Below are positions 22,636 to 45,220 of a DNA stretch of 47,010 nt, piece by piece. A program made the position numbers and the translations under genes. The notes beneath the pieces were generated by a model. That model was given only the letters and a program-made list of their open reading frames with translations. It was not told where the DNA came from and did no database searches. Numbering within the stretch: position 1 is the stretch's first letter; every line of letters begins with the position of its first letter. The stretch comes from a virus: IMG/VR virus record IMGVR_UViG_3300009285_010022, positions 1 through 47,010 of that record; one strand, written 5' to 3'.

Positions 22636-22812
22636 ATGAATAAGTACACATTAGATAAATATATTCAGTTAGGAAAATCAGTTATACTCATAAAAGATAA
22701 AACCATTAGGCGTATAATGGGAATATATAAACACGAAAATAAAATATTGGGAGTTGTGGTTGAGGGAATATACGTATTACTTCCTATTGATGAAATAGAG
22801 ATAATAAAATGA
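22636..22812 (+). CDS. MNxYT family member 1
   Basis: A protein of 58 residues starting MNKYTLDKYIQLGKSV and ending I-D-E-I-E-I-I-K. First copy of the array, 19 bp after the terminator of small RNA 2; AAGGAT upstream is a modest SD. Its stop overlaps the next ATG. Short version with a reduced middle strand. Confidence 0.75.
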   Translation: MNKYTLDKYIQLGKSVILIKDKTIRRIMGIYKHENKILGVVVEGIYVLLPIDEIEIIK

Positions 22813-22991
22813 ATCTGTACACACTTAGGAAAACATTTAAACCAGGAACTAAAGTTAGTTGTCCTTTAGATGATTGCGTTGGAACTGTTAAAGGAATTGT
22901 AGAGTTTTGGAAGAAAGTATGGCTAATAGAATTGGTTGAATATGATGATGATTTATTTAGCCCAGAAGATTTGGTGATAATCAATGAATGA
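22809..22991 (+). CDS. MNxYT family member 2 (two-Cys)
   Basis: A protein of 60 residues: MNLYTLRKTFKPGTKV, then C-P-L-D-D-C-V-G-T-V, then F-S-P-E-D-L-V-I-I-N-E. The two Cys sit right after the basic strand, the position where other copies carry a fuller Cys cluster. Translationally coupled to member 1 by ATGA. Confidence 0.78.
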   Translation: MNLYTLRKTFKPGTKVSCPLDDCVGTVKGIVEFWKKVWLIELVEYDDDLFSPEDLVIINE

Positions 22992-23178
22992 TTATGTGTT
23001 TAATAAATATCTTAAACCTGGACAAAAAGTAAGAATAAAATCTGATAAAATAATGCCAAAATTAGATAGAATTCATATAATATCAAAAGTAGATAGATTT
23101 AATAATTCATATCTAACGATATGGCTTAAGGATAATCCATTCCCCTGGTATAAAGATGAAATTGAGATAGTAATATGA
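22984..23178 (+). CDS. MNxYT family member 3
   Basis: A protein of 64 residues: MNDYVFNKYLKPGQKVRIK at the start, Y-K-D-E-I-E-I-V-I at the end. Overlaps member 2 by 8 nt. The Thr of the opening motif is Val here. Confidence 0.78.
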   Translation: MNDYVFNKYLKPGQKVRIKSDKIMPKLDRIHIISKVDRFNNSYLTIWLKDNPFPWYKDEIEIVI

Positions 23179-23369
23179 ATGAATATACAATAAATAAGGC
23201 AATAAGAGAATTAATGACGGGAAGAAGAAAAATAACTATTGAATTTGCTGGTTTTAAAGAATCCTTCTATTTAGAGGGAATAGAAATAACACATGATGAA
23301 ATTGTTCTAAAATTAGATAGACCTACATTTAGTGGAACTAGGACCTTTACGTTTAAAAAGTCGCCATGA
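23175..23369 (+). CDS. MNxYT family member 4 (divergent)
   Basis: A protein of 64 residues starting MNEYTINKAIREL. The G-T-K-V motif is replaced by G-R-R-K-I-T-I, and the usual acidic end is missing (it ends T-F-K-K-S-P). Only the opening and the strand rhythm tie it to the family; the C-terminus may have been lost or exchanged. Confidence 0.65.
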   Translation: MNEYTINKAIRELMTGRRKITIEFAGFKESFYLEGIEITHDEIVLKLDRPTFSGTRTFTFKKSP

Positions 23370-23605
23370 ATGAATATACGATAAAAAAGAAATTTCCAAT
23401 AGGGACTAAAATTAGATATTTTGAAGAACCATATAATGACCATGAATCTGAAATAGAATATCACGGACATGTTATTGGTTATTTCAGAACAACACGAAAT
23501 GAATTATTCATTAATGCAAGGGTATCTGCAATAGATAGTAACAATAATCCAGTTAATTTAGAGTTTGGTGTTATTATTAATCCTGATCATGTTGAAATAA
23601 TATGA
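23366..23605 (+). CDS. MNxYT family member 5
   Basis: A protein of 79 residues: MNEYTIKKKFPIGTKIRYF, a polar insertion rich in Glu and His, and N-P-D-H-V-E-I-I at the end. ATGA joints on both sides. Confidence 0.77.
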   Translation: MNEYTIKKKFPIGTKIRYFEEPYNDHESEIEYHGHVIGYFRTTRNELFINARVSAIDSNNNPVNLEFGVIINPDHVEII

Positions 23606-23817
23606 ACATATATACAGAATTTAAAGAACTTAGAAGAATATTTCCCAAAGGTAAATTTTTTAGAAATAAATACAATCGATGGGAGCATATCTGCATTATA
23701 GGTTATGAAATATTAGCAGATAAATGGTTTGCTAAAGGTAAGGTTATTAAAGAAAGTAATAATGAAGTAATCCATTGGTTAGATTTGAAACAAAAAAATA
23801 AATGGTTAAGAATATGA
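23602..23817 (+). CDS. MNxYT family member 6
   Basis: A protein of 71 residues: MNIYTEFKELRRIFPKGKFF, with the longer opening helix seen in several later copies. The middle is Trp- and Lys-rich and the end is basic (K-N-K-W-L-R-I) instead of acidic. Confidence 0.72.
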   Translation: MNIYTEFKELRRIFPKGKFFRNKYNRWEHICIIGYEILADKWFAKGKVIKESNNEVIHWLDLKQKNKWLRI

Positions 23818-24017
23818 ATATATATACATTTAATAAATTAAAACATGGTGATAGATTTAGGGTTAAAGAGATGGCACAAACACGAGGGTTTGAAGGAAAA
23901 ATATTTACAGTTGATATTAGAGCAGTAGATAAAATAGGCCCATACGTTAGAACTATTGAAATGAATAAATATAACAATATTCAATTAGTATTTTCAGCAG
24001 ATGAAATAGAAAAATGA
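23814..24017 (+). CDS. MNxYT family member 7
   Basis: A protein of 67 residues from the ATG overlapping the previous stop: MNIYTFNKLKHGDRFRVK, K-I-F-T-V-D-I-R in the middle, F-S-A-D-E-I-E-K at the end. A typical copy; an ATG 12 nt upstream is in frame but is not the coupled start. Confidence 0.78.
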   Translation: MNIYTFNKLKHGDRFRVKEMAQTRGFEGKIFTVDIRAVDKIGPYVRTIEMNKYNNIQLVFSADEIEK

Positions 24018-24289
24018 ATAGATACACTGCAAAAAAATTACTAATTCAAAAATACCCTATTGGAGCTAAGCTAAGATTAAAAGAAGATCTTGATTTTTCT
24101 GATTATAGAAAAATATCACTATTTCCAGAAGATTGTTCCATAATTGATTATGTATTACCTATCCTTGAAGTTGAAGTATCATCAATTAGTATGACTAAAA
24201 CCGTTAACGGTTACATAAAAGCTTCAACTTATGAACACGATTTCATATCAATTAATGATTTAGAAAAATATTATGATATAATCAAATGA
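24014..24289 (+). CDS. MNxYT family member 8
   Basis: A protein of 91 residues, one of the longer copies: MNRYTAKKLLIQKYPIGAKL, an extended middle with F-P-E-D-C-S-I-I, and I-S-I-N-D-L-E-K-Y-Y at the end. ATGA joint with the next gene. Confidence 0.76.
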   Translation: MNRYTAKKLLIQKYPIGAKLRLKEDLDFSDYRKISLFPEDCSIIDYVLPILEVEVSSISMTKTVNGYIKASTYEHDFISINDLEKYYDIIK

Positions 24290-24495
24290 ATTATTATACC
24301 AAGTTAAAATATGCTAACAAGCATTTTCCTATAGGGTCAACTATTACTCAGACTTTTGATGAAAAACATATGGGAAAGATATCAAAATTCATATTAAAAG
24401 ATCAATATCTAACGATATTTGTTGAAGGCAATAATCTGGAAGGAAGTATAACGGTAGATATTGAAAGATTAATTGAAGAAGATAAAAATGAATAA
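24286..24495 (+). CDS. MNxYT family member 9
   Basis: A protein of 69 residues: MNYYTKLKYANKHFPIGSTI (long-helix form), ending D-I-E-R-L-I-E-E-D-K-N-E. Stop is TAA and the next ATG lies 5 nt inside this gene. Confidence 0.76.
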   Translation: MNYYTKLKYANKHFPIGSTITQTFDEKHMGKISKFILKDQYLTIFVEGNNLEGSITVDIERLIEEDKNE

Positions 24496-24694
24496 TTATA
24501 CCTTAATGAAATTTTTGAGGAAGAAATATCCAATAGATAAAATTATTACAGAAGATGGACGAATATTAAAAGTAATTAAATGGGAAATAAGTAATTACGG
24601 GATATGGATAACATTTCTTATTCTAGATGGTCTTGAAAAAGGAAAATATTTAGTACAGATGTTAGATGAAGAAACAAGGACGGCTTATGAATAA
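24488..24694 (+). CDS. MNxYT family member 10
   Basis: A protein of 68 residues: MNNYTLMKFLRKKYPI, then D-K-I-I-T-E-D instead of G-T-K-V, so the conserved Gly is lost. I place the start at the MNNYT codon rather than the in-frame ATG 15 nt earlier. Overlaps both neighbours by 8 nt. Confidence 0.73.
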   Translation: MNNYTLMKFLRKKYPIDKIITEDGRILKVIKWEISNYGIWITFLILDGLEKGKYLVQMLDEETRTAYE

Positions 24695-24908
24695 TTATAC
24701 AAAACTAAAAGAAGCTAGAAAAGAATTCCCCATAGGTAGTAGATATATTTCTAAAATAACTTCTTCAGCGTCTATAGAAATAATAGGTCATAGTATTGGG
24801 CATAGTATTGCTGGAACTAAAATTGCAATAATACACTTTGAAGATAAATCTGGAGCAAAATATTCTCAACCTATTGAGATATTTAGAAGTTGGTTTACTA
24901 ATGAATAA
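24687..24908 (+). CDS. MNxYT family member 11 (long-helix form)
   Basis: A protein of 73 residues: MNNYTKLKEARKEFPIGSRY, with an I-I-G-H-S-I-G-H-S-I internal mini-duplication and I-E-I-F-R-S-W-F-T-N-E at the end. Closely related to the copy starting at 25386, which shares A-R-K-E-F-P, I-G-H-S-I and a final L/I-F-R. Confidence 0.76.
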   Translation: MNNYTKLKEARKEFPIGSRYISKITSSASIEIIGHSIGHSIAGTKIAIIHFEDKSGAKYSQPIEIFRSWFTNE

Positions 24909-25113
24909 CTATACTCTACTTAAAGAAGTTAGATCAAAGTATCCTGTTGGTTCAAGGTTTAAGAGTCTTAGAACAAATAAGATATGCTACATCACTTTAG
25001 TAAGATATAGCACGGTATTTCGTAGAATTGTCATACAGGCAGAGCCAGAAACTAATTGTAGTGAAATCAATACACCTTATCTATTCTATCCTGAAGAGTT
25101 AGAGCCATTATGA
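24901..25113 (+). CDS. MNxYT family member 12 (long-helix form)
   Basis: A protein of 70 residues: MNNYTLLKEVRSKYPVGSRF, ending F-Y-P-E-E-L-E-P-L. The frame is open upstream inside the previous gene, but the MNNYT codon is the start by family comparison. ATGA joint with the next. Confidence 0.76.
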   Translation: MNNYTLLKEVRSKYPVGSRFKSLRTNKICYITLVRYSTVFRRIVIQAEPETNCSEINTPYLFYPEELEPL

Positions 25114-25389
25114 ACCTCTACACTAAATTCAAAAACTTTAGAAAAACCTATCCAATAGGAACGAAACTTGTTCGGTACAATAATATTGGAGATACCCTAA
25201 CTATTCTTTCTCATATTGCTCCTGATCACTCTAATGACTACACCTGCCTTGCACTAGTAAAACTACATGGGATTAGAGTATGCAGCTTCTGAAATGTACC
25301 TAGATGTTCTCTATGAGAATCATGCATGTAAAATCAATAAAAATGACTCCATATCAATCAAAATTGAAAATAAGTTGGTAGAAAAATGA
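25110..25389 (+). pseudogene. MNxYT family member 13, frameshifted
   Basis: Begins MNLYTKFKNFRKTYPIGTKL but stops at 25292 after 60 residues in a non-family tail (I-R-V-C-S-F). The plus-one frame continues from about 25260 with G-L-E-Y-A-A-S-E-M-Y-L-D-V-L and ends K-L-V-E-K exactly at the ATG of the next copy, as an intact copy would. Removing one A from the AAAA run at 25259-25262 rejoins the frames into a protein of about 92 residues. Either a broken gene or a sequencing indel. Confidence 0.6.
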
Positions 25390-25601
25390 ATAGCTACACC
25401 ATTCTTAAAGAAGCTAGAAAAGAATTTCCCATGGGAAGTGTTAATGGTTATATCAAAGTAATCGGGCATTCAATAAGAGAGGGTTTCGAAAATGAAAATG
25501 TAGTGAAAATACATTTTAAAATTTTGAGTAATCTAAGTGATGGCTCAGAACATAGGTTATCTATAGATCTATTTAGAAAAGCATTCAGTTTAACATGTTG
25601 A
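25386..25601 (+). CDS. MNxYT family member 14 (long-helix form)
   Basis: A protein of 71 residues: MNSYTILKEARKEFPMGSV, I-G-H-S-I in the middle, L-S-I-D-L-F-R-K-A-F near the end. Nearest relative is the copy at 24687. Confidence 0.75.
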   Translation: MNSYTILKEARKEFPMGSVNGYIKVIGHSIREGFENENVVKIHFKILSNLSDGSEHRLSIDLFRKAFSLTC

Positions 25602-25615
25602 TGCTGAGGTAGAAT

Positions 25616-25951
25616 ATGAATATCTACACTCTAATGAAGAGACTTCGTGAAATACTTCCAATCGGAACAATTCTGCATCCAAGAAGACATATAAAATTCT
25701 CTATCAATCATTCTGTGATGATTGTAGACTTCTACATAATAACTATCCCATTCGTGACTGCAATCACAAGGAGTCTACCCACGCACGATGACTCTTCAGA
25801 GCCATTTAATGCAGACTACCTCATAAATCTTCTATGTTACTATTTTGAAACCCCCGATGATCTAGAACCCTTCATAAAATCCTACCACGTGAGTATAGGA
25901 TATAATGTTTATGATTCTGTTTCAAGTAGTTATAGTTCTAAAATCAGATAA
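25616..25951 (+). CDS. MNxYT family member 15 (long, last of first block)
   Basis: A protein of 111 residues: MNIYTLMKRLREILPIGTIL, then an unusually long hydrophobic and Tyr-rich body (V-M-I-V-D-F-Y-I-I-T-I-P-F-V) and a Ser-rich end. It does not overlap its neighbours; GAGGTAGA is the SD. It may represent fusion with unrelated sequence. A 470-bp gene-free stretch follows. Confidence 0.68.
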   Translation: MNIYTLMKRLREILPIGTILHPRRHIKFSINHSVMIVDFYIITIPFVTAITRSLPTHDDSSEPFNADYLINLLCYYFETPDDLEPFIKSYHVSIGYNVYDSVSSSYSSKIR

Positions 25952-27460: not shown

Positions 27461-27533
27461 TTAACTATTACTAACTTGTAGATGCACTATTAACTAGATA
27501 ATCATAACCTTTAACAAAGAATAGGAGAATATT

Positions 27534-27933: not shown

Positions 27934-28149
27934 ATGAACTTGTATACATTAAGCCGATTAAAAAGAGGAGATTTTGTTCAATTAACAGATTTAATTGAAC
28001 AAAAAGAATCACCTGACTATCAAGCGCCAGAAGTGGCAAAGGTTCTTTCAAATGATTTTGTAAAAAAGTTCATTTCATTTGAAACTAAGAGCCTGGTGGT
28101 GAGGTATAAATATAATTCACTTAGAAAAGAATTTATTATCAAAAGGTGA
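27934..28149 (+). CDS. MNxYT family member 16
   Basis: A protein of 71 residues: MNLYTLSRLKRGDFVQLT, ending in a basic E-F-I-I-K-R. An isolated copy among unrelated small genes; it has its own SD TAGGAGGGTG rather than an ATGA joint. Confidence 0.76.
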   Translation: MNLYTLSRLKRGDFVQLTDLIEQKESPDYQAPEVAKVLSNDFVKKFISFETKSLVVRYKYNSLRKEFIIKR

Positions 28150-29006: not shown

Positions 29007-29249
29007 ATGAACCTCTATTCACTACAAAAACTTAAGAAAGCAAACATCGTAAAGGTAACTGATGAACTTAATGATTTCAATGGAGATCCATATACTCACT
29101 CAATTGTGTATGTAGTTGTAAATAATGATCCTAAAAATAAAAATATAACATTAGCTACTAATATTTACGATAAAGAGACAAGAACAACATTTGATTATAA
29201 AATATTCACTAACTATCCTAAAACCACACTTACTAAACTTACTAACTAG
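29007..29249 (+). CDS. MNxYT family member 17
   Basis: A protein of 80 residues: MNLYSLQKLKKANIVKVTD, so Thr is Ser and the Gly is lost. The end (P-K-T-T-L-T-K-L-T-N) lacks the acidic tail. SD GGAGGTGACAG. Confidence 0.7.
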   Translation: MNLYSLQKLKKANIVKVTDELNDFNGDPYTHSIVYVVVNNDPKNKNITLATNIYDKETRTTFDYKIFTNYPKTTLTKLTN

Positions 29250-29259
29250 GAGGTGACAA

Positions 29260-29607
29260 ATGAATAAATATACAAGCAAGGAGTTAATGAAAGAATTAAA
29301 AGGTAAACTTAGATTTGGAACAATTGTGAGGCTGACCCAAACGTATGGGCGATTATCCAAAGATGATTTATTAGATGTTAAAAAAGTATATGAATCTAGA
29401 TCACACAGGGGTGTTGATTCTAAGTTACTTCAAATAGATCCAATTGATGGTGGTTTTTACGATGAGGAAGTTAATATTAATGATGTAGAGATTGTAATGG
29501 ATGCACCTAAAATCAAATGTCCAAACTGCAATCATGTATTTCACTTTGATATTTATAAATATGAAAAACTATTAGAAAAATTTATGAAAAAACTTAGAGG
29601 CTGGTAA
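29260..29607 (+). CDS. MNxYT family member 18 with C-terminal CxxC extension
   Basis: A protein of 115 residues: MNKYTSKELMKELKGKLRFG, a typical body ending N-D-V-E-I-V-M-D, then an extra ~35 residues with C-P-N-C-N-H-V-F-H-F and a Lys-rich helix. The CxxC and the two His could bind metal. The only copy with an added domain after the barrel-like body. SD GGAGGTGACAA. Confidence 0.72.
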   Translation: MNKYTSKELMKELKGKLRFGTIVRLTQTYGRLSKDDLLDVKKVYESRSHRGVDSKLLQIDPIDGGFYDEEVNINDVEIVMDAPKIKCPNCNHVFHFDIYKYEKLLEKFMKKLRGW

Positions 29608-31937: not shown

Positions 31938-32159
31938 TTGAACCAGTATACCTTTAACAAAGAATTTAAAGTAGGAACTAGAATCTATCATCAAAATCAT
32001 GGAGAAGTTTTTATATCTGAAATCCTATATTCACACTTTAACAATAACATAGTATTTGGGCTAAAGTTAAATAGCCTAATAAATGGTAAACGAGTAATGT
32101 TAAGGACTCTTAGAAAATTTTCAGAAGAATATAACAATGGGGATTTCTATAAATTATGA
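31938..32159 (+). CDS. MNxYT family member 19 (TTG start)
   Basis: A protein of 73 residues: MNQYTFNKEFKVGTRIY, starting at TTG 4 nt after GGAGGTGAT. The family alignment fixes this start. It ends Y-N-N-G-D-F-Y-K-L. Coupled to the next copy by ATGA. Confidence 0.75.
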   Translation: MNQYTFNKEFKVGTRIYHQNHGEVFISEILYSHFNNNIVFGLKLNSLINGKRVMLRTLRKFSEEYNNGDFYKL

Positions 32160-32377
32160 ACATGTATACACTGAAAAAAGAATATCCGATTGGAACCATA
32201 TTTAGCTCACATCTTTTTAACAAATTAACCATAACTAATTACACCTATAGTGACCAATTAAAAACCATTTTAGTCCACATATCTTTAGATAATGGTGAAC
32301 GTTATGGGCATTATGAACTTAATCACTTTCTTCATAATATTGGTAAAATATGGGATAAAGGAGAAAGAAAATGGTAG
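32156..32377 (+). CDS. MNxYT family member 20
   Basis: A protein of 73 residues: MNMYTLKKEYPIGTIFSS, ending in the basic W-D-K-G-E-R-K-W, so the usual acidic tail is absent. Overlaps the next gene's start by 7 nt. Confidence 0.75.
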   Translation: MNMYTLKKEYPIGTIFSSHLFNKLTITNYTYSDQLKTILVHISLDNGERYGHYELNHFLHNIGKIWDKGERKW

Positions 32378-33137: not shown

Positions 33138-33347
33138 ATGAATGAATATGTTAAGATAAAATTGTTTAGACCAGGAACTAAAGTAACACCGACAAAAAAA
33201 TTCAGAGGTCTTTATAACAAAATGGATCTATCAGATGTATATGTAGTTAAATCATTCTTAAAAGAAGTTGATCATGTAATTTTATGTGGTGGAAAATATG
33301 ATGAAGAACGATGGCATATAGATCATTTGGAGGTAGTAAATGAATAA
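33138..33347 (+). CDS. MNxYT family member 21
   Basis: A protein of 69 residues: MNEYVKIKLFRPGTKVTP, then a D-V-Y-V-V-K strand and W-H-I-D-H-L-E-V-V-N-E. The family start is used; an in-frame TTG at 33105 lies inside a hairpin. Closely related to the copy at 44188 (R-P-G-T-K-V-T-P-T and W-H-x-D). Confidence 0.75.
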   Translation: MNEYVKIKLFRPGTKVTPTKKFRGLYNKMDLSDVYVVKSFLKEVDHVILCGGKYDEERWHIDHLEVVNE

Positions 33348-33576
33348 TTATATTGCAAGAAAAATATTGAAACCAGGAGTTAAAGTAAGAATCAAAAAAG
33401 AAGCCGGAATAATTTATGAAGAAATAACATCTAAAGAAGTGTTAACCATAACAGAGGTTTTAGTTTCGGAAGATAATAAGGTATTCATATCATTGATTAA
33501 AGGAAATATAAATGACCTTGATGAACTTAATTACTCATTTAAATTAGAAGAAATTGAGGAGGTGATAAATGGATAA
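33340..33576 (+). CDS. MNxYT family member 22
   Basis: A protein of 78 residues: MNNYIARKILKPGVKVRIKK, ending F-K-L-E-E-I-E-E-V-I-N-G. SD GGAGG lies inside the previous gene. Overlaps both neighbours by 8 nt. Confidence 0.77.
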   Translation: MNNYIARKILKPGVKVRIKKEAGIIYEEITSKEVLTITEVLVSEDNKVFISLIKGNINDLDELNYSFKLEEIEEVING

Positions 33577-33867: not shown

Positions 33868-34077
33868 ATGGCATACACGAGTGTTGATTTCAAAACAAAG
33901 AAAGCGTTGAAAGAAGCTGTGGTTCAAGGTAGGAAGATTTCTATCTATAACCACTCAGGAATATTTCCAACCAAAGACAATGGAATTGAATTCGTTGAAG
34001 GTCCACACTATCCTAAACCTCACACATGGTATGCTCAAGTAACAATGAAAGACGGGGTGATAGTAAAAGTAAAATGA
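33868..34077 (+). CDS. Small phage protein with GPHYPKPH motif
   Basis: A protein of 69 residues beginning MAYTSVDFKTKKALKEAV, with G-P-H-Y-P-K-P-H-T-W-Y-A-Q-V. I recall many phages encoding a short protein with the same K-T-K-K-x-L-K-E-A-V opening and G-P-H-Y-P-x-P-H-x-W-Y-A, of unknown function. The second ATG is used because of its 7-nt spacing from GAGGAGGA. Confidence 0.68.
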   Translation: MAYTSVDFKTKKALKEAVVQGRKISIYNHSGIFPTKDNGIEFVEGPHYPKPHTWYAQVTMKDGVIVKVK

Positions 34078-34292
34078 ATCTATACACATTTAAAAAGACA
34101 TTTAAAGATGGAATGAAAGTTAAACTACTTAGATGTGATAACAAAAACTGTGGTCTACGAAATGACTGTGTTGGGTCTATTGTAGAAATCGGTGATATTT
34201 CAACTCGAAATGGACCGAGTTTTTGGATTGAGGGTGAATATGCAGAGTGTGAAGTAACATGTGACTTTGAAGATTTGGAGGTAATAAAATGA
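34074..34292 (+). CDS. MNxYT family member 24 (Cys-cluster form)
   Basis: A protein of 72 residues: MNLYTFKKTFKDGMKVKLL, then R-C-D-N-K-N-C-G-L-R-N-D-C-V-G, and C-D-F-E-D-L-E-V-I-K at the end. Three Cys sit directly after the basic strand, like a zinc knuckle inserted in a barrel loop. The family start is used; the frame is open upstream. Confidence 0.78.
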   Translation: MNLYTFKKTFKDGMKVKLLRCDNKNCGLRNDCVGSIVEIGDISTRNGPSFWIEGEYAECEVTCDFEDLEVIK

Positions 34293-34522: not shown

Positions 34523-34747
34523 ATGAATCTATATCAACTCAGGAGATACATAGGTAAACAATTCAAAATGAAAAATTTAGCTAATAGACCAGGGACTATA
34601 GGTACTTATTCAAATATTTGGCCCGGAATCTATATTGTAAAAGATGCTTATTACAGTAATAGAAGGATGTGTAATGTAATAGAATTCATAGATTCAAGTG
34701 ATAATGAGGAATATATTATAAAACTTAAATTTGTAGAGTTTCTGTAA
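34523..34747 (+). CDS. MNxYT family member 26
   Basis: A protein of 74 residues: MNLYQLRRYIGKQFKMKN, where Thr is Gln and G-T-K-V is changed to G-K-Q-F. G-I-Y-I-V-K-D is the middle strand and I-K-L-K-F-V-E-F-L the end. SD weak. Confidence 0.68.
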   Translation: MNLYQLRRYIGKQFKMKNLANRPGTIGTYSNIWPGIYIVKDAYYSNRRMCNVIEFIDSSDNEEYIIKLKFVEFL

Positions 34748-36365: not shown

Positions 36366-36554
36366 ATGAATAAATACAGTTGGGAAAAAGGTCGTAATGA
36401 ACTTGCAAAAACTCTAAAAGAAAAACTTTCACCAGAAGAAATTATGGTGATAGTAGAAACTGTTTTTGATTTATTAGATGAAGAGGAACATGAACAGGTT
36501 TTTTCAAAAGAAATTCTAGATCTCTTAGATGGTAATTCAAAATATTTCCGGTAA
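36366..36554 (+). CDS. Helical acidic protein with MNxY-like opening
   Basis: A protein of 62 residues: MNKYSWEKGRNELAKTLKEK, followed by two acidic helices. It shares only the first residues with the array family and lacks all barrel motifs, so it may use the same initiation region or be an unrelated gene. Confidence 0.58.
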   Translation: MNKYSWEKGRNELAKTLKEKLSPEEIMVIVETVFDLLDEEEHEQVFSKEILDLLDGNSKYFR

Positions 36555-36607: not shown

Positions 36608-36805
36608 ATGAATTTATACTGTTTTCGTAAATTGAAAGTAGGTGATGAAATAGAAATAGCCGACAATTTATTTAAAGGATTATTTCTTCCTGAAAGAATT
36701 ACCATAATAAAATTACGAAAAGATTCATCTGGGAACGATTGTGCGGATATTGATTATGGGCTATATGTTTTACCTTATCAAATCGTTAGAAAGATAGAAA
36801 AATGA
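36608..36805 (+). CDS. MNxYT family member 28 (YCF form)
   Basis: A protein of 65 residues: MNLYCFRKLKVGDEIEIAD, ending L-P-Y-Q-I-V-R-K-I-E-K. Representative of the subfamily in which Thr-x is replaced by Cys-Phe. ATGA joint with a broken copy. Confidence 0.76.
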   Translation: MNLYCFRKLKVGDEIEIADNLFKGLFLPERITIIKLRKDSSGNDCADIDYGLYVLPYQIVRKIEK

Positions 36806-37037
36806 ATTTATATACTTTCAAAAAAGGAGCTGTAACCTGTAAGAAACTAAAGATGATCGCATGTAAGCATGTAAGGCAGATTCTCCTTGTCATAACCGTT
36901 GTCTTAGCGAAACACATGAAATTGTAGAACTAAAATTTAATAGTAATAGAAATGAATATGAAATTAATTTTATTAACAGTTGCACTTCGAGGGTTTGCCA
37001 AGCTAGATATGAAGATGAATTTGAGTTTGTAGAATGA
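36802..37037 (+). pseudogene. MNxYT family member 29, broken by 8-bp duplication (Cys-cluster form)
   Basis: Starts MNLYTFKKGAVTCKKLKM and stops after 41 codons. GCATGTAA occurs twice in tandem (36859-36866 and 36867-36874). Removing one copy restores a single frame with C-K-A-D-S-P-C-H-N-R-C, then V-E-L-K-F and F-E-F-V-E, ending at the next ATG, i.e. a normal Cys-cluster member of about 76 residues. This is a direct, recent inactivation or a reversible switch. Confidence 0.75.
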
Positions 37038-37237
37038 ATCTATATACATTCAAAAAATTGAAAGTAGGTGATAGAATTCTTATTGATTTTCCAATGAGAA
37101 AAACTCCAATGGAATGTGAAGTAGTAGAAGCAGTAACCACAGACAGTGATTGGATAAAAACATTTATTGTTAATTCAAGAAATAAAGAACCTTTGAATGT
37201 CCCAAGAGTAGCAATAATCTGTAAGATAGAAAAATGA
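37034..37237 (+). CDS. MNxYT family member 30
   Basis: A protein of 67 residues: MNLYTFKKLKVGDRILID, ending V-A-I-I-C-K-I-E-K. ATGA joints both sides, the right one leading into a truncated copy. Confidence 0.77.
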   Translation: MNLYTFKKLKVGDRILIDFPMRKTPMECEVVEAVTTDSDWIKTFIVNSRNKEPLNVPRVAIICKIEK

Positions 37238-37272
37238 ATATATGTTTTCAAAGGGCTAATAGCGAGGGTTAA
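37234..37272 (+). pseudogene. Truncated array copy, 12 codons
   Basis: MNICFQRANSEG then stop. The start overlaps the previous stop as in intact copies. Nearly repeated 52 bp downstream; probably what remains of a YCF-form gene. Confidence 0.55.
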
Positions 37273-37285
37273 ATGGGTTATTGAG

Positions 37286-37327
37286 ATGAATATATATTGC
37301 TTTCAAAGGGCTAATGGTAGTAGTTAA
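37286..37327 (+). pseudogene. Truncated array copy, 13 codons
   Basis: MNIYCFQRANGSS then stop. Shares TTTCAAAGGGCTAATG-type DNA with the fragment just upstream, so the pair looks like a duplicated remnant. Confidence 0.55.
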
Positions 37328-37333
37328 ATTGAC

Positions 37334-37540
37334 ATGAATCTATATACTTTCAATAAATTGAAACCAGGAGATAGAATTAGACTTCGCGAAGGAATGGATC
37401 ATAGAGATTGTTCTACAATCCAAGTTGTGAAGAAGCGTTGGGGTAATAGTAAATTATGGATAGTAACAAGTGATAGCGAAACTAGAAATCCAAAACTCAC
37501 TCATATATCTAATGTTGAATGTAAAATAGAAGAATCATGA
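37334..37540 (+). CDS. MNxYT family member 33
   Basis: A protein of 68 residues: MNLYTFNKLKPGDRIRLRE, ending N-V-E-C-K-I-E-E-S. Typical copy, ATGA joint to the next. Confidence 0.78.
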   Translation: MNLYTFNKLKPGDRIRLREGMDHRDCSTIQVVKKRWGNSKLWIVTSDSETRNPKLTHISNVECKIEES

Positions 37541-38012: not shown

Positions 38013-38228
38013 GTGAACTTGTATACACTGAAGAAAAAATATCCAATAGGAACTAAGTTAATTAGAAATTTCAACAATCATAAGGGATATAAGAAACACT
38101 ATAATGTTTGGATTGTTGATGGATATAATACCAGTCGTAAACATTTAATTCTATTAAGAAGTGATAATAGTAATTATTTAATTGGCGTTCCTTATTCAAA
38201 TCTTAAACACTATAAGAGAATCAAATGA
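38013..38228 (+). CDS. MNxYT family member 35 (GTG start)
   Basis: A protein of 71 residues: MNLYTLKKKYPIGTKLIRN, read from GTG 11 nt after AGGAGA. The basic end (L-K-H-Y-K-R-I-K) replaces the acidic tail. First copy after the palindromic gap, so it may head its own transcript. Confidence 0.75.
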   Translation: MNLYTLKKKYPIGTKLIRNFNNHKGYKKHYNVWIVDGYNTSRKHLILLRSDNSNYLIGVPYSNLKHYKRIK

Positions 38229-38422
38229 ATTTCTATTGCTTCAGAAGACTTAAGCCAGGAGATATCATAGAACTCACTGATGAAACTATGAGAGAATGGA
38301 ATATCCATCACAGAGAACAGATAGTAAAAAAGTTCTGGCGTAGTGGTATCCTAACACGTCAAGGATGGTGTATTCACCCTGATGAAATACTCAGAAAAAT
38401 TCCTTACCCTACAAAGAAATAA
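38225..38422 (+). CDS. MNxYT family member 36 (YCF form)
   Basis: A protein of 65 residues: MNFYCFRRLKPGDIIELTD, with I-H-P-D-E-I-L-R-K-I near the end. ATGA joint to member 35. Confidence 0.77.
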   Translation: MNFYCFRRLKPGDIIELTDETMREWNIHHREQIVKKFWRSGILTRQGWCIHPDEILRKIPYPTKK

Positions 38423-39043: not shown

Positions 39044-39241
39044 ATGAATCTCTACTGTTTCAAAAGACTCAAACCAGGAGATAAAGTAGAGGCCAGTGAT
39101 GAATTTATATCTAACTACAATAACAATCCACCAAAAATTCAGACTATTAAAAAGATTAGAGAACGGAGATATAATTCTATCTATGCCCGTACAATTGAAG
39201 GTTGGTGGTTGAGCCATTGTGAAATTGATAAAAAACTATAA
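39044..39241 (+). CDS. MNxYT family member 37 (YCF form)
   Basis: A protein of 65 residues: MNLYCFKRLKPGDKVEASD, then P-P-K-I-Q-T-I-K-K and W-W-L-S. Near-duplicate of the copy at 39531. SD GAGGTC. Confidence 0.78.
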   Translation: MNLYCFKRLKPGDKVEASDEFISNYNNNPPKIQTIKKIRERRYNSIYARTIEGWWLSHCEIDKKL

Positions 39242-39279
39242 CTTTATATTCTTGTTCTTTAATATTTGAGATCATTCTT

Positions 39280-39534
39280 ATGAATCTCTATACACTTAGA
39301 AAAACCTATAAAATAGGAACTAAGATTAGAATCACTAAATGCAGAGGTGAATCTACTAGAATAAGTAAATGTGATTGTGCTCCAATATGTAGCAAAGTAG
39401 TTGAAATCTATAAAATTGATTATGAATCTAAAACAATAGACTTCATCATGAAAGACACTATAAAAAATGAAGTTTCTTCATGTTTTGTATTTTTAGATAA
39501 AAATACAGATGAAGCAATAGAGATTATAGAATGA
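39280..39534 (+). CDS. MNxYT family member 38 (Cys-cluster form)
   Basis: A protein of 84 residues: MNLYTLRKTYKIGTKIRIT, then four Cys in K-C ... K-C-D-C-A-P-I-C, and E-A-I-E-I-I-E at the end. The largest Cys insertion in the family. ATGA joint to the next. Confidence 0.78.
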   Translation: MNLYTLRKTYKIGTKIRITKCRGESTRISKCDCAPICSKVVEIYKIDYESKTIDFIMKDTIKNEVSSCFVFLDKNTDEAIEIIE

Positions 39535-39722
39535 ACATCTACTGTTTCAAAAGACTCAAACCAGGAGATAAAGTAGAGGCCAGTGATGAATTTACCATTT
39601 TCTATCACAAAAGTCCACCAAAGATTCAGACTGTTAAAGAATTCAGCAATGGTAACGATAACTATCTCTACACAGAAGAGGAATGGTGGTTAACAGCTAT
39701 AGATATTAAAAGAAAAATATAA
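39531..39722 (+). CDS. MNxYT family member 39 (YCF form, recent duplicate)
   Basis: A protein of 63 residues: MNIYCFKRLKPGDKVEASD, P-P-K-I-Q-T-V-K-E and E-W-W-L-T. The first ~60 bp and the ~40-bp sequence after the stop (TTTATATTCTTGTTCTTTAA) are nearly identical to those of the copy at 39044. Confidence 0.77.
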   Translation: MNIYCFKRLKPGDKVEASDEFTIFYHKSPPKIQTVKEFSNGNDNYLYTEEEWWLTAIDIKRKI

Positions 39723-39765
39723 TAACTTTATATTCTTGTTCTTTAATGTTTGAGGTCTTCTTCTA

Positions 39766-39978
39766 ATGAACCAATACCTGATTAGAAAGAAGTACAAGGT
39801 AGGAACTAAAGTTATTATCAACAAAAAAATTTATAAAGACCCATATTATGATGATAAGATATTTACAATCAAAAGAGTTGAAATAGATAGAAATATCAAA
39901 ATTTTTCTAAAAGGCTTTGATTATGATAGTAACTGGGATAATGTATCGTGGTTTCCAGATGAAATTATTCTAATTTAG
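39766..39978 (+). CDS. MNxYT family member 40
   Basis: A protein of 70 residues: MNQYLIRKKYKVGTKVIIN, K-I-F-T-I-K-R-V in the middle and W-F-P-D-E-I-I-L-I at the end. Typical barrel rhythm. SD GAGGTC. Confidence 0.76.
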   Translation: MNQYLIRKKYKVGTKVIINKKIYKDPYYDDKIFTIKRVEIDRNIKIFLKGFDYDSNWDNVSWFPDEIILI

Positions 39979-40002
39979 AAGACTATAAGGAGGTGATAAC
40001 AG

Positions 40003-40227
40003 TTAAATGACTATACATTAAAGAAAATATACAGACCAGGAACTAAAGTTGAAGTTATCGGTTACGATCTATGGGTAGAACCATATACGATTCTTAAATC
40101 TGGAAGAAATCTTGTTAAATTCGTTCCTGGATTTCTAATCATATTAGAAGGATACGAAAAAATCTGGTGGACCCCAAGTGAATTAAGAACTCTTAAGGAA
40201 AACGAAAATGAATCTATACACAGCTAA
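40003..40227 (+). pseudogene. MNxYT family member 41 with lost start codon
   Basis: A 74-codon open frame reading N-D-Y-T-L-K-K-I-Y-R-P-G-T-K-V-E-V from the second codon, with a normal middle and W-W-T-P-S-E-L near the end. Where ATG should be there is TTA, although a perfect GGAGGTGATAA lies 6 nt upstream. Either translation starts at a non-standard codon or the gene was silenced by mutation of its start. Too weak a start for ordinary gene calling. Confidence 0.65.
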
Positions 40228-40423
40228 TAAAATCTATAGAAAAGGAAGTAGAATTAGAGTAAAGAGCCACGAATCGAGTTTTTTCAGTGAACCTTTTATA
40301 ATTAGGGAAATTGACGTTGGTCATTCAATATATTTGAGAAGAGAAGCAGTCTATATCTTTGTTGAAAACCGTAATTTTCCATCAAATAACTTTTTCTATG
40401 ATTATGAAGTTGAGGTCCTATGA
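40208..40423 (+). CDS. MNxYT family member 42
   Basis: A protein of 71 residues: MNLYTANKIYRKGSRIRVK, P-F-I-I-R-E-I in the middle and F-Y-D-Y-E-V-E-V-L at the end. Overlaps the end of the start-less copy by 20 nt. Confidence 0.76.
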   Translation: MNLYTANKIYRKGSRIRVKSHESSFFSEPFIIREIDVGHSIYLRREAVYIFVENRNFPSNNFFYDYEVEVL

Positions 40424-40536
40424 ATCTATATACAATAGGAAAGAAAGCCAAACCAGAATCACAATAAATGCTATGTTGCGATTGATAGGGATGAATTTGA
40501 AATCATAGAAACTCAAAAGGAGGTGACAAAAGATGA
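40420..40536 (+). pseudogene. MNxYT family member 43, internally deleted remnant
   Basis: Opening MNLYTIGKKAKPESQ ends at a TAA after 15 codons; another frame continues K-C-Y-V-A-I-D-R-D-E-F-E-I-I-E, a typical C-terminus. The central strands are missing, so this looks like a deletion plus frameshift. SD for the next gene follows. Confidence 0.65.
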
Positions 40537-40805
40537 ATGAGTATACAATAAGGAAGAAATTCCCAATAGGAAGCAAAATAAGAGTGATTAATAACATTGA
40601 AGATGAAAGAATTATAAGGCGACATGGAAATATATTTACAGTGAAATCAATAGAAAGATGGGCATTCTTTACAGGTGAAGATGGTCCTATTGAAGGCATA
40701 AAATATAGTAATTTCTTAATAATTCCCGATGATAAAGAAACTTGGGGGATGGGTGTGGTGGTTTCATCCAGATAATGTAGAAGTTTTAAAGAAGATTAAA
40801 AAATG
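40533..40805 (+). pseudogene. MNxYT family member 44, frameshift in a G run
   Basis: Starts MNEYTIRKKFPIGSKIRV and reads normally to about residue 71, then ends in V-V-V-S-S-R. One base less in GGGGG (40744-40748) would give W-V-W-W-F-H-P-D-N-V-E-V-L-K-K-I-K-K, a typical family end whose stop overlaps the next ATG. Either a homopolymer error, a real inactivation, or a slip-prone switch. In-frame product as read: 80 residues. Confidence 0.65.
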
Positions 40806-41030
40806 AATTTATATACAGCAATGAAAGAATTGAAACCAGGAATCTTTATAAGATTTAAGGGTCATGATGAAGAACAAAAGATAAAAGAAGTTAGAGAAGG
40901 AATAAGATATCATAAATTTTGGAATAAATATGTAGTTACTGTTCGTGATAGACTTGGAAAAAATGGAATAGTCTTCTTAGAAGAGATTTTGGAGGTGATA
41001 AATGAAAAGAAGATCAATATTGAGGAGTAG
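40803..41030 (+). CDS. MNxYT family member 45
   Basis: A protein of 75 residues: MNLYTAMKELKPGIFIRFK, ending E-E-I-L-E-V-I-N-E-K-K. Its coupling to the upstream copy depends on the out-of-frame end of that copy. The 3' end contains the SD GGAGGTGATAA of a micro-ORF. Confidence 0.75.
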   Translation: MNLYTAMKELKPGIFIRFKGHDEEQKIKEVREGIRYHKFWNKYVVTVRDRLGKNGIVFLEEILEVINEKKINIEE

Positions 41031-41052
41031 ACCTAAAAGAAAAATTAAATAA
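41002..41052 (+). CDS. Basic micro-ORF, 16 residues
   Basis: MKRRSILRSRPKRKIK, preceded by a perfect GGAGGTGATAA at ideal spacing and overlapping the previous gene's end. Ten of 16 residues are Lys or Arg. Could be a functional RNA- or ribosome-binding peptide, or just the start of a deleted gene. Confidence 0.4.
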   Translation: MKRRSILRSRPKRKIK

Positions 41053-41078
41053 TATTGTTGAAGTGTGTAAATTTACCC

Positions 41079-41107
41079 TTGTTTTTGAAATGTTAGTATG
41101 GTATAAT
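41079..41107 (+). promoter_or_regulatory. Promoter before the 41.1-kb gene
   Basis: TTGTTT, 17 bp, TATAAT. It lies 26 bp before the ATG at 41133, with AGAGGAGG as SD. The -35 departs from TTGCA, so this is a weaker match to the series. Confidence 0.58.
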
Positions 41108-41132
41108 AAATAAAAAAGAGGAGGCAAAAGAG

Positions 41133-41555: not shown

Positions 41556-41558
41556 CTA

Positions 41559-41750
41559 ATGCCAAAAAGATCCAAGAACTGTAAAAATCATGGTATAAAA
41601 TCTCATAGATCTCATATAAGTGGAAAGAGATCTATGATTAAACCGTTCGGTAAATTCTGCAAAAATCTATCGGAAGAGGAACACAGTGAGTGGCTGGAGC
41701 GATTTAAGGAATTAGAAAATGAACGCTTACCTCGCAAAAAAGAAATATAG
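41559..41750 (+). CDS. Small basic protein of unknown function
   Basis: A protein of 63 residues: MPKRSKNCKNHGIKSHRSH, then a charged helix with F-C-K-N-L-S-E-E-E-H-S-E-W-L-E-R-F. Overlaps the next array copy by 32 nt, more than the usual 4-8 nt. Confidence 0.58.
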   Translation: MPKRSKNCKNHGIKSHRSHISGKRSMIKPFGKFCKNLSEEEHSEWLERFKELENERLPRKKEI

Positions 41751-41925
41751 AAAAGGCGCTAAAATAAAAGTAACTACTGAAAGACTTGATGGTTATCATA
41801 ATAAAATTTTTGAAATTTCAGATATTGATTATTTTACAACTGATGGGGGAACTTTCATTGTTAGAATTTTTGTTCAAAACGATATTACTTACTTTTATGA
41901 TTCAGAAGTAGAGGTTGTAAAATGA
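41719..41925 (+). CDS. MNxYT family member 46
   Basis: A protein of 68 residues: MNAYLAKKKYRKGAKIKVT, K-I-F-E-I-S-D-I in the middle and F-Y-D-S-E-V-E-V-V-K at the end. Similar in its Y-R-K-G to the copy at 40208. ATGA joint. Confidence 0.76.
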   Translation: MNAYLAKKKYRKGAKIKVTTERLDGYHNKIFEISDIDYFTTDGGTFIVRIFVQNDITYFYDSEVEVVK

Positions 41926-42182
41926 ACGCTTACACCATAAGAAAGAAATTCCCAATAGGAACTAAGGTTAGAGTAACATGTTTGATAGACGATAAACTTG
42001 TATATGAAGATTGGATAGGAAGAATTGGAATTATTACTAAACTTGACTTTGGAACAATAAAATATACAAAATATGTAAGACACATACCCATTCATATAGA
42101 AACAGAAGAAGGTGAGAATAATCAATTTTTTCCTGAAGAACTGGAGGTGATAAATGAAACCAAAAGTAATCCAGAAGGGTAA
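41922..42182 (+). CDS. MNxYT family member 47
   Basis: A protein of 86 residues: MNAYTIRKKFPIGTKVRVT, ending F-F-P-E-E-L-E-V-I-N-E then an extra T-K-S-N-P-E-G. The extension overlaps the start of the next gene, whose GGAGGTGATAA lies within it. Confidence 0.77.
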   Translation: MNAYTIRKKFPIGTKVRVTCLIDDKLVYEDWIGRIGIITKLDFGTIKYTKYVRHIPIHIETEEGENNQFFPEELEVINETKSNPEG

Positions 42183-42420
42183 GAAATTTTATATACTTCA
42201 CAAGACGGAATTCATTGATAACGTAATCATAACAAATGGCAAATCAATAACACTATCAAAGGAGGGTAAAATAATCTGCATATATTGTGAATCTGAACTG
42301 AGAATGATTCTAACTGGTTCACCTAAAAACGATAAAGGTAGATTTTTCTGCACTCAATGCAACGAACACATGGGAAACTATAGAACGTCTAAGGATTTCT
42401 CAATATTTAGGAGGAAATAG
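42154..42420 (+). CDS. Zinc-ribbon-like small protein
   Basis: A protein of 88 residues with C-I-Y-C (42-45) and C-T-Q-C (66-69), a two-pair zinc ribbon. Starts MKPKVIQKGKKFYIL and ends basic. Perfect SD inside the previous gene. Possibly a transcription- or DNA-associated factor; function unknown. Confidence 0.62.
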   Translation: MKPKVIQKGKKFYILHKTEFIDNVIITNGKSITLSKEGKIICIYCESELRMILTGSPKNDKGRFFCTQCNEHMGNYRTSKDFSIFRRK

Positions 42421-42422
42421 AA

Positions 42423-42911
42423 ATGAAGAAAATAATGATCGGTATGGTGGTATTTTTCTTGGCAATGGCAAGTGTCACATTTGCTGACATTAGAGAAGAT
42501 ATTCTAAAAGAATTCTATAAGATGGAAGCGAGATGTGAAGCAGGAATTACCTATATCGGACATGCTGATAGCCTTGCAAATATAGGCTTCAAAATGAAAG
42601 AATATAACAGACAAAAGAAAATAAATAAATATGAGCCTATAAAATCAATTGGATTCGATATAGCTATAAATGCAGCCTATCTCGAATATGAATTTGCACA
42701 GACTATTTGGAGATGGAAGGTTCAATTCGGGGATACATCTCATTATCCGGCTATGGATTTGTACAAGGCATTCTACAAATTCTTTCCTGATAGTGATATT
42801 GAAAAAGATTATGACGGTAGAATATTCTATATGGATATGATATCATACGCTTGGGGAGAAGCAAGCAAACATGTAAAGAAAGCTGAAAATGAACTAACTG
42901 GAAATAAATGA
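42423..42911 (+). CDS. Secreted protein with signal peptide
   Basis: A protein of 162 residues. The first 21 form a classic Sec signal: M-K-K, a hydrophobic core (I-M-I-G-M-V-V-F-F-L-A-M-A-S-V) and V-T-F-A before Asp. The mature part is helical with many aromatic and acidic residues. A secreted phage protein placed between array genes is unusual; it may act in the envelope, for example in exclusion or lysis control. SD TAGGAGG. Confidence 0.72.
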   Translation: MKKIMIGMVVFFLAMASVTFADIREDILKEFYKMEARCEAGITYIGHADSLANIGFKMKEYNRQKKINKYEPIKSIGFDIAINAAYLEYEFAQTIWRWKVQFGDTSHYPAMDLYKAFYKFFPDSDIEKDYDGRIFYMDMISYAWGEASKHVKKAENELTGNK

Positions 42912-43117
42912 ATGAATATACTATAAATAAATATTTAAGAAAAGGCCAAAAAGTAAAAATAATTTGTGAATGTGACCATTGTAGAATTCATAATGAAGTC
43001 ACTGGCAAAATTTTTAATATTGTTAAGGTAGAATGGGAATCCCCAATAGAATTTATCCACATAGAAGGATATCCAAAAACATATTTCAGGCTTGATGAAA
43101 TTGAAATAGTAAAATGA
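42908..43117 (+). CDS. MNxYT family member 48 (Cys-cluster form)
   Basis: A protein of 69 residues: MNEYTINKYLRKGQKVKII, then C-E-C-D-H-C-R-I-H, K-I-F-N-I-V in the middle and F-R-L-D-E-I-E-I-V-K at the end. ATGA joints on both sides although the upstream gene is unrelated. Confidence 0.78.
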   Translation: MNEYTINKYLRKGQKVKIICECDHCRIHNEVTGKIFNIVKVEWESPIEFIHIEGYPKTYFRLDEIEIVK

Positions 43118-43305
43118 ACTTATATACATTCAAAAGATTAAAGATTGGCGATAAAGTTAGAATAAATGAAAATGAAACAACCTATAGAAGTATGATTGGT
43201 CAAATTGTAAGAGTTGATTTAATTTGGGAAGGGCATAATGTTATACTGTCTGACTGCGGATGCAATTTTCTCTATTATGAAATAGATAAGGTGGAGGAAG
43301 GATAA
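43114..43305 (+). CDS. MNxYT family member 49
   Basis: A protein of 63 residues: MNLYTFKRLKIGDKVRINE, a short loop, and I-L-S-D-C-G-C-N-F-L-Y-Y-E-I-D-K-V at the end. The C-G-C pair is in the last strand, not at the usual cluster position. Shares one base with the next start. Confidence 0.76.
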   Translation: MNLYTFKRLKIGDKVRINENETTYRSMIGQIVRVDLIWEGHNVILSDCGCNFLYYEIDKVEEG

Positions 43306-44186: not shown

Positions 44187-44187
44187 T

Positions 44188-44403
44188 ATGAATCTATACA
44201 CACTCAAAAAGAAATTTAGGCCAGGAACAAAAGTAACACCAACACTTAGATTTAAAGATGATCCTAATTATGGAAAAATATTCACAGTTAAGAGTATTAT
44301 TGAATATACTGCAGATTACATTCTAGTAGATGTATATAGGGGTGAGGGATCAAAAGAATCAGATGGCTGGCATCCAGATAATCTAATGGTGATTGATGAA
44401 TAA
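44188..44403 (+). CDS. MNxYT family member 50
   Basis: A protein of 71 residues: MNLYTLKKKFRPGTKVTPT, K-I-F-T-V-K-S-I in the middle and G-W-H-P-D-N-L-M-V-I-D-E at the end. One of the clearest family examples and a near relative of the copy at 33138. Confidence 0.8.
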   Translation: MNLYTLKKKFRPGTKVTPTLRFKDDPNYGKIFTVKSIIEYTADYILVDVYRGEGSKESDGWHPDNLMVIDE

Positions 44404-44599
44404 ATATCTCTTCAATAGATTAAAGGTAGGTGATAAAGTAAGAATAAATAAAAAGGGAATAGAATCATATTGCGATTTCCATGAAAATGAAGGTATTGTT
44501 ATTGGCATTGGTCAATATGCAGAAAATTGTTTTGTTGATATAAAAACATCTCATAACAAATTAGTATTTTTTCCTGATGAAATAGAGTACAAATTATGA
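44396..44599 (+). CDS. MNxYT family member 51
   Basis: A protein of 67 residues: MNKYLFNRLKVGDKVRINK, ending F-F-P-D-E-I-E-Y-K-L. The ATG lies 8 nt inside the previous gene; a TTG 3 nt upstream is less likely. Confidence 0.77.
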   Translation: MNKYLFNRLKVGDKVRINKKGIESYCDFHENEGIVIGIGQYAENCFVDIKTSHNKLVFFPDEIEYKL

Positions 44600-44820
44600 A
44601 TTTATACACTGCAAAAAAACTGTTAAAACCTGGAGTTCTAATAAGATTAAATAAAACAGTAGTAGTTGCTGATCGCAGTACATATTCAGAGCTTAGCGAA
44701 TTTACTGTTAAAGAAGTATACAGAGGTGTTGAGGATAAGTATTTCTTGGTATATGTAGAGGAACATTCTGATTTCTTTTATTATCATGAAGTAGACATTA
44801 TTGATGAAATAGTTGAATGA
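44596..44820 (+). CDS. MNxYT family member 52
   Basis: A protein of 74 residues: MNLYTAKKLLKPGVLIRLN, E-F-T-V-K-E-V-Y in the middle and F-Y-Y-H-E-V-D-I-I-D-E at the end. ATGA joints both sides. Confidence 0.78.
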   Translation: MNLYTAKKLLKPGVLIRLNKTVVVADRSTYSELSEFTVKEVYRGVEDKYFLVYVEEHSDFFYYHEVDIIDEIVE

Positions 44821-45011
44821 ACAAATATACTCTAATGAAGAAGTTAAAAGTTGGTAATGAAATTATATCTAAATTTAGTAGAAATAAATATATTATCTGC
44901 GAAATTCGCAAAACTCAATATGGGAGTTTAGTTATTCTTGCTAGAACTAAAGAAAAACTCCATAAGCATCTTACATATGAGTTTAATATTACAGAAATAG
45001 AATTTTTATGA
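44817..45011 (+). CDS. MNxYT family member 53
   Basis: A protein of 64 residues: MNKYTLMKKLKVGNEIISK, ending F-N-I-T-E-I-E-F-L. Compact copy with a basic middle. Confidence 0.77.
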   Translation: MNKYTLMKKLKVGNEIISKFSRNKYIICEIRKTQYGSLVILARTKEKLHKHLTYEFNITEIEFL

Positions 45012-45220
45012 ATCAATATACTCTTAATAAATTATACCACGTAGGTAGAAAGATAAAAATAATTTACTGCTCTCATACACATTGCGAACGCTGTTGTGGA
45101 TGTATAGGAGTGGTAACTAAAATAGAAAAATTATTATTTGATTTTAATAATCATCCTATTCTTATCTATACTGAAAAATTTGCATGTTATTTTACAAGTA
45201 ATGAAATTGAATTGTTATGA
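45008..45220 (+). CDS. MNxYT family member 54 (Cys-cluster form, last in array)
   Basis: A protein of 70 residues: MNQYTLNKLYHVGRKIKII, then Y-C-S-H-T-H-C-E-R-C-C-G-C-I-G, and F-T-S-N-E-I-E-L-L at the end. The densest Cys/His cluster in the family (five Cys, two His). Ends 17 bp before gyrA. Confidence 0.79.
   Translation: MNQYTLNKLYHVGRKIKIIYCSHTHCERCCGCIGVVTKIEKLLFDFNNHPILIYTEKFACYFTSNEIELL

Follow-up and report, generated by a model that had tools for sequence, protein, structure and literature searches.

Clusters of small accessory proteins are already known from phages, as are diversified proteins that carry a common leader. The nearest working analogue of the locus described here, offered as an analogy and with no claim of membership, is the set of internal proteins of the T-even phages, which have an N-terminal leader in common and disable different restriction enzymes (PMC12373910, PMC3012670). 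A second point of reference is tifA of T4, a small counter-defence gene that is reported to form tandem copies by recombination between short homologous sequences (PMC9391042). Our subject is an array of 46 small genes of one family on the plus strand of IMG/VR virus record IMGVR_UViG_3300009285_010022 (47,010 bases, analysed at its full length and called the window hereafter), at positions 22636 to 45220.

Like IPI, IPII and IPIII of T4, the array products are small proteins of one phage with a common N-terminus that differ elsewhere. The T4 set consists of three proteins whose bodies are unrelated in sequence, whereas the array and its outlying copies supply about 50 bodies with one predicted barrel fold, and the T4 leader (MKTYQEF or MKTFKEF) directs packaging, whereas the array tag (MNxYTxxK) reads differently and is at most a putative packaging signal. 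The T4 feature of one leader on unrelated proteins may have a counterpart here in six tagged open reading frames (ORFs) that have no clear barrel, but most of the tagged proteins are related barrels. The tifA copies are a recent segmental amplification that arose in an experiment, whereas the copies of the array look old and are diverged. The occurrence of the N-terminal motif on other proteins is the main new point of this work, and it was absent from the first-pass annotation, which had been made from the letters of the window without database searches. We know of no array of such size that combines one barrel with a shared tag.

Size and sequence of the array

Copies were counted as plus-strand ORFs of at least 35 amino acids with an M-N-x-Y start. 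This rule found 49 starts, three of which were removed before counting: 14110 lies outside the array, 39099 is out of frame inside copy 39044, and 36366 is tagged and has no barrel match. The 46 that remain compare with a chance expectation, under the same start rule, of 0.245 on average and 2 at most in 200 first-order simulated sequences of 22001-45300. They encode 41-115 amino acids (median 70), and all match the family profile, which was trained on these same copies; 23175 matches over its N-terminal part only. The window is part of a longer IMG/VR contig, IMGVR_UViG_3300025073_000817 (114,591 bases), and BLASTP clustering, which needs no profile (single linkage, expectation value (E) 1e-3, SEG and composition correction off), joined 39 ORFs of that contig into one cluster. 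The largest paralogue cluster obtained in the same way elsewhere had 7 members in T4, 5 in SPO1, 3 in Emery and 5 in phiKZ, and 2, 4 and 0 in three terminase-related contigs; the seven T4 members resemble homing endonucleases by eye.

About 43 of the 46 copies look intact; of the others, 25110 is truncated, and a frameshift lies in 36802 and, close to its end, in 40533. In the window, six copies are visibly broken or reduced to remnants (25110, 36802, 37286-37309, 40000-40224, 40420 and the end of 40533), three of them among the 46. Beyond the window the contig carries seven further copies, at 74.0 kb, 78.3-78.9 kb and 113.5-114.1 kb, and the one at contig position 78336 is broken by an internal TAG. 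The first-pass annotation had counted about 45 intact genes and at least seven broken ones. The size of the array stands at 46, but the intact number is nearer 43, and the window itself holds six broken copies, one more lying outside it. The estimate that the family forms half of the right arm was about right in that its copies occupy 9,916 of the 22,585 bases of the array, other genes interrupting them.

Selection on M-N-x-Y renders N2 and Y4 invariant by construction, and the search was therefore redone with a profile lacking the tag, which, being trained on tagged rows, is not fully independent. It found 51 open segments at E 0.5. The pattern [MLV]N.Y lies somewhere within 49 of these, and the other two stand at E >0.4: no convincing tagless barrel was obtained.

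The copies are strongly diverged, with a pairwise identity among 45 of them of 25% on average and 58% at most. Column entropy over the same number (36802 left out) bears out the earlier description of conserved ends and a variable middle: besides M1 and the selected N2 and Y4, conservation is seen at T5 (34 of 46) and at K or R in position 8 (45/46), followed by a weak hydrophobic pattern and an acidic C-terminus, and a glycine precedes the first strand in 43 of 45 copies. At N2 the codons AAT and AAC are used 33 and 13 times, and at Y4 TAT and TAC 30 and 16 times, codons that end in C being commoner at both positions than elsewhere in the copies. This synonymous variation indicates that the constraint acts on the protein and, with the bias towards C-ending codons, rules out a DNA-level element at the 5' end such as an initiation signal. 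Rfam returned no RNA family at its gathering score, and promoter prediction in 27000-46000 gave no signal (79 found, 77.4 expected). Overlaps between genes do exist, but the statement that the copies are mostly joined by ATGA overlaps of four nucleotides was too strong. A four-nucleotide overlap with an upstream family gene occurs at 17 of 46 starts and an eight-nucleotide one at 6; when every upstream open frame of 40 or more codons is admitted, ATGA overlaps reach 21/46. A Shine-Dalgarno sequence precedes 11 of the 46.

Predicted fold and search for relatives

Two divergent members were modelled with AlphaFold2. For 42908, with an alignment of 45 sequences (42 of the 46 window copies and three from outside), the predicted local distance difference test score (pLDDT) was 85 and the predicted template modelling score (pTM) 0.69, with a helix at residues 3-9 and then a barrel. 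Member 24687, from a divergent sub-family, gave pLDDT 90 and pTM 0.73, with a helix at 3-13, again a barrel, and a longer helix before the last strand of that barrel. About five strands with a helical turn ahead of the last one, the arrangement of SH3-like barrels, are thus present in prediction, and the small SH3-like barrel proposed in the first-pass annotation is supported at that level. Compared with PDB sequences, the family profile listed 17 matches at E up to 1, 13 of them PsaE (best E 0.017) and three L24 proteins (uL24), both of which are SH3-like.

Structure comparison placed the 42908 model nearest to PetP (Z 8.1 over 69 residues, root-mean-square deviation (rmsd) 3.1), followed by the mitochondrial ribosome chain 3j7y_V, which we take to be uL24 (7.8), photosystem I chain E (7.0), NusG (6.6) and YorP (6.4); Spt5 was also among its neighbours. 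The neighbours of the 24687 model were CarD (Z 7.4, 58 residues aligned, rmsd 2.2), a chain of the VapXD complex 6zn8 that is presumably VapX (7.3), Mfd (6.0) and UvrD (5.9). In predicted fold and in length the array members are therefore like PsaE, PetP, the NusG, Spt5 and uL24 domains (presumably KOW-type), the N-terminal domain of CarD, the VapX antitoxin and YorP; unlike these, they show no membership by sequence in the searches made, carry an N-terminal tag and helix, and form a multigene array. On these models we take the family to be an SH3-like barrel that is a member of no one known family.

Library scans of 45 members are in keeping with this placement. At E 0.05, eight Pfam families were matched, none of them KOW, PsaE or SH3, the best being DUF6927 (E 0.0014, one member). 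DUF4314 (PF14192) was matched by member 34074 alone, over residues 5-44 at 18.7 bits, below the curated cut-off of 27 bits, and the other 44 members had no match to it at E 0.05. The best PHROG, phrog_16588 (function not known), covered three members (best E 5.1e-4) and left most unmatched, and the best entries of PADLOC (REase_II, E 2.4e-4) and NCBIfam (E 0.0037) each took one of the 45. The earlier statement that no such family is known thus holds for Pfam, PHROGs, NCBIfam, PADLOC and the sequences searched, and the papers listed in literature searches, judged by the openings of their abstracts, include none on such an array.

Viral and bacterial sequences likewise gave no convincing relative outside the contig itself. 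Relatives were found in none of 19 terminase-related viral records (profile A1, E 0.1), many of which are fragments, and 556,780 bases of fetched viral loci gave one sequence at E 0.7. Peptide-pattern scans of IMG/VR returned 39 and 9 stretches, in which every relative came from this contig, and a scan of GTDB returned 30 stretches and no relative. A DNA pattern for tandem tags found 10 viral stretches, five of them this contig, and 27 in GTDB contigs; in the 48 pattern-fetched loci the best profile match (L070, E 0.0028) was a short tag-like piece within another protein, the others standing at E >=0.43. Whole genomes scanned with the profile yielded 0/6, 0/398 and 0/398 (about 800 distinct), and T4, SPO1, phiKZ, phage G and Emery 0/5, with 51 matches in G001; tblastn of three members against 50,697 phage records reached E 2 at best. 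Proteins as short and diverged as these are easily missed by pattern and BLAST searches, and the profile was run on the scanned records only, so that distant relatives may exist. As the sequences searched stand, this family of about 50 small proteins is found so far only in its own contig.

The N-terminal tag and the purpose of the array

The motif MNxY(T/S/N/C)xx(K/R) begins 50 ORFs of at least 50 amino acids in the contig pieces, 44 of them family members. The six others, all on the plus strand, start at 36366 of the window and at 74215, 87865, 88278, 89076 and 111336 of the contig; none has a Pfam match at E 0.05, and the rest of their sequence is unlike the barrel. They are drawn from about 355 non-family ORFs of that length (407 counted, with overlaps between contig pieces included twice, minus 52 of the family). 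In a stricter gene set, from which 88278 drops out, 5 of 150 are tagged, where chance would give 0.015-0.04 if each ORF has a single start and no more than about 0.3 if each is allowed eight candidate starts. As a control, the 556,780 bases of viral loci from elsewhere hold 2789 ORFs, of which 2 carry the motif, each in a locus that had been retrieved by a DNA pattern encoding the tag; at longest-frame starts it was absent from seven other phages or contigs, with 34 in G001. The presence of the tag on six ORFs without a clear barrel suggests that it is probably a protein-level module separable from the barrel. Two of the six, contig 87865 and 88278 (L046:14866 and L046:15279), have similar tagged starts, MNDYTLMRENPELYK and MNDYTLLKTNPKLYE, and a second small tagged family is possible.

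The reading that we favour, tentatively and at somewhat less than an even chance, is a repertoire of diversified binding proteins that have a single docking tag in common. The array would then supply binders whose expression would be separate from that of the structural genes on the opposite strand. The variable parts of each barrel would bind a different host protein (a defence enzyme, a toxin, or a transcription or translation factor) and either block or redirect it, while the tag, predicted in the models to be part of a short helix, would dock all of the proteins to one partner, be it a host protease or chaperone, RNA polymerase or a phage assembly. Recombination at the shared 5' ends would yield new copies, some of which decay, and about half of the copies would be translated via start-stop overlap with the preceding one. 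What leads us to this reading is the excess of copies (46 where chance gives 0.25), some 43 open frames maintained at a mean identity of 25%, helix and barrel in two divergent members together with SH3-like matches in sequence and fold, the tag on ORFs without a clear barrel, the synonymous variation at N2 and Y4, and the DNA repeat families that span start codons. A more specific form, in which about 50 varied barrels and other proteins make up an effector repertoire sent by one eight-residue address tag to the capsid, a host protease, RNA polymerase or another hub, is possible but on the doubtful side. The structural match to the VapXD complex gives a hint of antitoxin-like inhibition.

Several observations weigh against a repertoire of this kind. 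Neither the PDB nor the viral models gave Foldseek a match below E 0.001, Z-scores of 5-8 may reflect merely a common arrangement of strands, and SH3-like barrels serve many purposes. The full motif is present in 38 of 46 members; it was fixed after the six additional ORFs had been seen, so that their count is not a blind test, and among 14 non-family N.Y starts of at least 20 amino acids it is found in 6 and not in the other 8. One of the six, contig 87865, matches the family weakly (E 0.022), and the six could be fusions that keep an unused 5' end. Diversifying selection was not seen either: for 39044 and 39531, the one close pair on which selection was measured, most copies being too diverged, the non-synonymous rate (dN, 0.28) is below the synonymous rate (dS, 0.60).

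If the repertoire does exist, the tag would be a new kind of address label for phage proteins, and exchange of the sequence that follows it would let the array evolve binders for many hosts and defences. That about 10 kb is given over to a single diversified family of small barrels suggests that a wide variety of surfaces has been selected for. As an address tag, the octapeptide would offer a handle for the common partner and would allow the sets of sister phages to be retrieved by N-terminus alone, and the targets of the barrels might possibly reveal new defence systems.

An alternative that we consider unlikely is a gene accordion, in which the family was amplified for dosage or by recombination at its 5' repeats and many copies have no distinct function. 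Nine of 11 DNA repeat families span a start codon, which suggests recombination at 5' ends, and these shared blocks, the broken copies and a duplication 78% identical over 245 columns (39043-39279 and 39530-39762, the most alike pair) are what such a process would leave, much as described for T4 tifA. About 43 of 46 frames nevertheless remain open at 25% mean identity, and dN is below dS in the closest pair, which argues against functionless copies, as these would have decayed. Neighbouring copies do not resemble one another significantly more than they do once the order is shuffled (p = 0.16). The array thus looks old and reshuffled, the 39044/39531 pair excepted, and fresh local tandem growth is rejected; of the diversification by tandem duplication put forward in the first-pass annotation, duplication stands and fresh tandem order does not.

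It is more unlikely that the octapeptide is a capsid-targeting leader and that barrels and tagged proteins travel in the head and enter the cell together with the DNA to disarm host defences. This explanation draws on the internal proteins Ip1-3 of T4, whose leaders (MKTYQEF, MKTYQEF and MKTFKEF) have an aromatic residue at position 4, as does the tag; in addition, the isoelectric point exceeds 8 in 28 of 46 members, and the phage has a Mu-like head protease. The tag differs in sequence from the T4 leaders, however, and no common cleavage site follows it by eye. It is predicted as part of the folded protein, the isoelectric point is below 6.5 in 10/46, and no tagged ORF occurs among the 75 (L049) and 12 (L050) ORFs of the structural-gene pieces or in the left arm of the window.

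Equally improbable, in our view, is that the barrels are transcription or translation proteins which bind RNA polymerase or ribosomes and reprogram the host. The main model resembles domains of NusG, Spt5 and ribosomal proteins, and that of 24687 lies closest to CarD and near CdnL, Mfd and UvrD domains, some of its neighbours having been solved together with parts of RNA polymerase. The CarD, Mfd and UvrD domains bind RNA polymerase, whereas the array shares with them a resemblance in predicted fold only. No Z-score of the sub-family reaches 8, further barrels, the VapXD chain among them, score about as high as CarD, none of the 45 members matches a Pfam family of this kind at E 0.05, and the proposal leaves about 50 divergent copies and the tag on other proteins unexplained.

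Finally, chance open frames or a mis-assembled repeat are scarcely credible as an explanation: the array is in one contig only, and the two records that agree on it (0 mismatches over the 41,033 of 47,010 window bases comparable with the fetched contig pieces) may be one assembly, but simulation, the cluster of 39 ORFs where none of seven other phages or contigs exceeds 7, and copies too unlike one another for assembly duplicates rule it out.

Layout of the array and its surroundings

The array opens with a run of 15 copies at 22636..25951 (22636, 22809, 22984, 23175, 23366, 23602, 23814, 24014, 24286, 24488, 24687, 24901, the truncated 25110, 25386 and 25616), the family copies and remnants given here all being on the plus strand, and this run includes the sub-family with the longer N-terminal helix. 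One copy follows at 27934..28149 and two at 29007..29607 (29007 and 29260), of which 29260-29607 has an added C-terminal CPxC stretch resembling a zinc ribbon (weak match, E 0.0067). A gene pair encoding a VWA-like protein and an AAA ATPase interrupts the array at 29728-31890. The G+C content of this interval, 41%, is above that of most of the array, and its first gene is VWA-like (DUF2201) by Pfam and labelled 'HNH endonuclease' by PHROGs. Beyond it lie pairs of copies at 31938..32377 (31938, with a TTG start, and 32156) and 33138..33576 (33138 and 33340), and single copies at 34074..34292, the one with the weak DUF4314 match, and 34523..34747.

The strongest terminator-like hairpin of the scanned stretch (10 pairs and a T run) is found inside the array at 36269-36293. 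The tagged ORF MNKYSWEK... (62 amino acids, no profile or Pfam match) occupies 36366..36554 and is followed by four copies at 36608..37540 (36608, the frameshifted 36802, 37034 and 37334), within which 37286..37309 is a remnant consisting of the tag alone, MNIYCFQR. Two copies at 38013..38422 (38013, with a GTG start, and 38225) precede four at 39044..39978 (39044, 39280, 39531 and 39766) and a broken copy at 40000..40224 that has lost its start codon and retains an open barrel frame. Three copies at 40208..41030 (40208, 40533 with its frameshifted end, and 40803) accompany a degenerate copy from 40420. Pairs at 41719..42182 (41719 and 41922) and 42908..43305 (42908, whose structure was predicted, and 43114) lead to the last run, five copies at 44188..45220 (44188, 44396, 44596, 44817 and 45008). 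Directly 3' of it, a gene for DNA gyrase subunit A (45238..47010, plus strand) continues past the end of the window.

The source is a tailed phage. Its left arm encodes, on the minus strand, a large terminase, a Mu-like portal, capsid protein E, a tail tube and a Mu-like protease; from 19.2 kb on, by eye, the plus strand holds the main genes, beginning with an exonuclease and a dCTP-deaminase-like gene, after which the array starts. The terminase, its own contig aside, is at most 35% identical to that of a named phage (Brevibacillus phage Emery) and 39% to those of other viral contigs, low values which indicate a poorly sampled phage group. Two TnpB-like genes were recognised by eye, at contig 97720 and at the end of L048 (contig about 114,260-114,591); the contig breaks inside the second, so that the genome is probably incomplete (>114.6 kb) and copies may be missing. 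Among the structural genes, an ORF at 10721-11659 of the window resembles, by eye, a homing endonuclease with NUMOD-like repeats.

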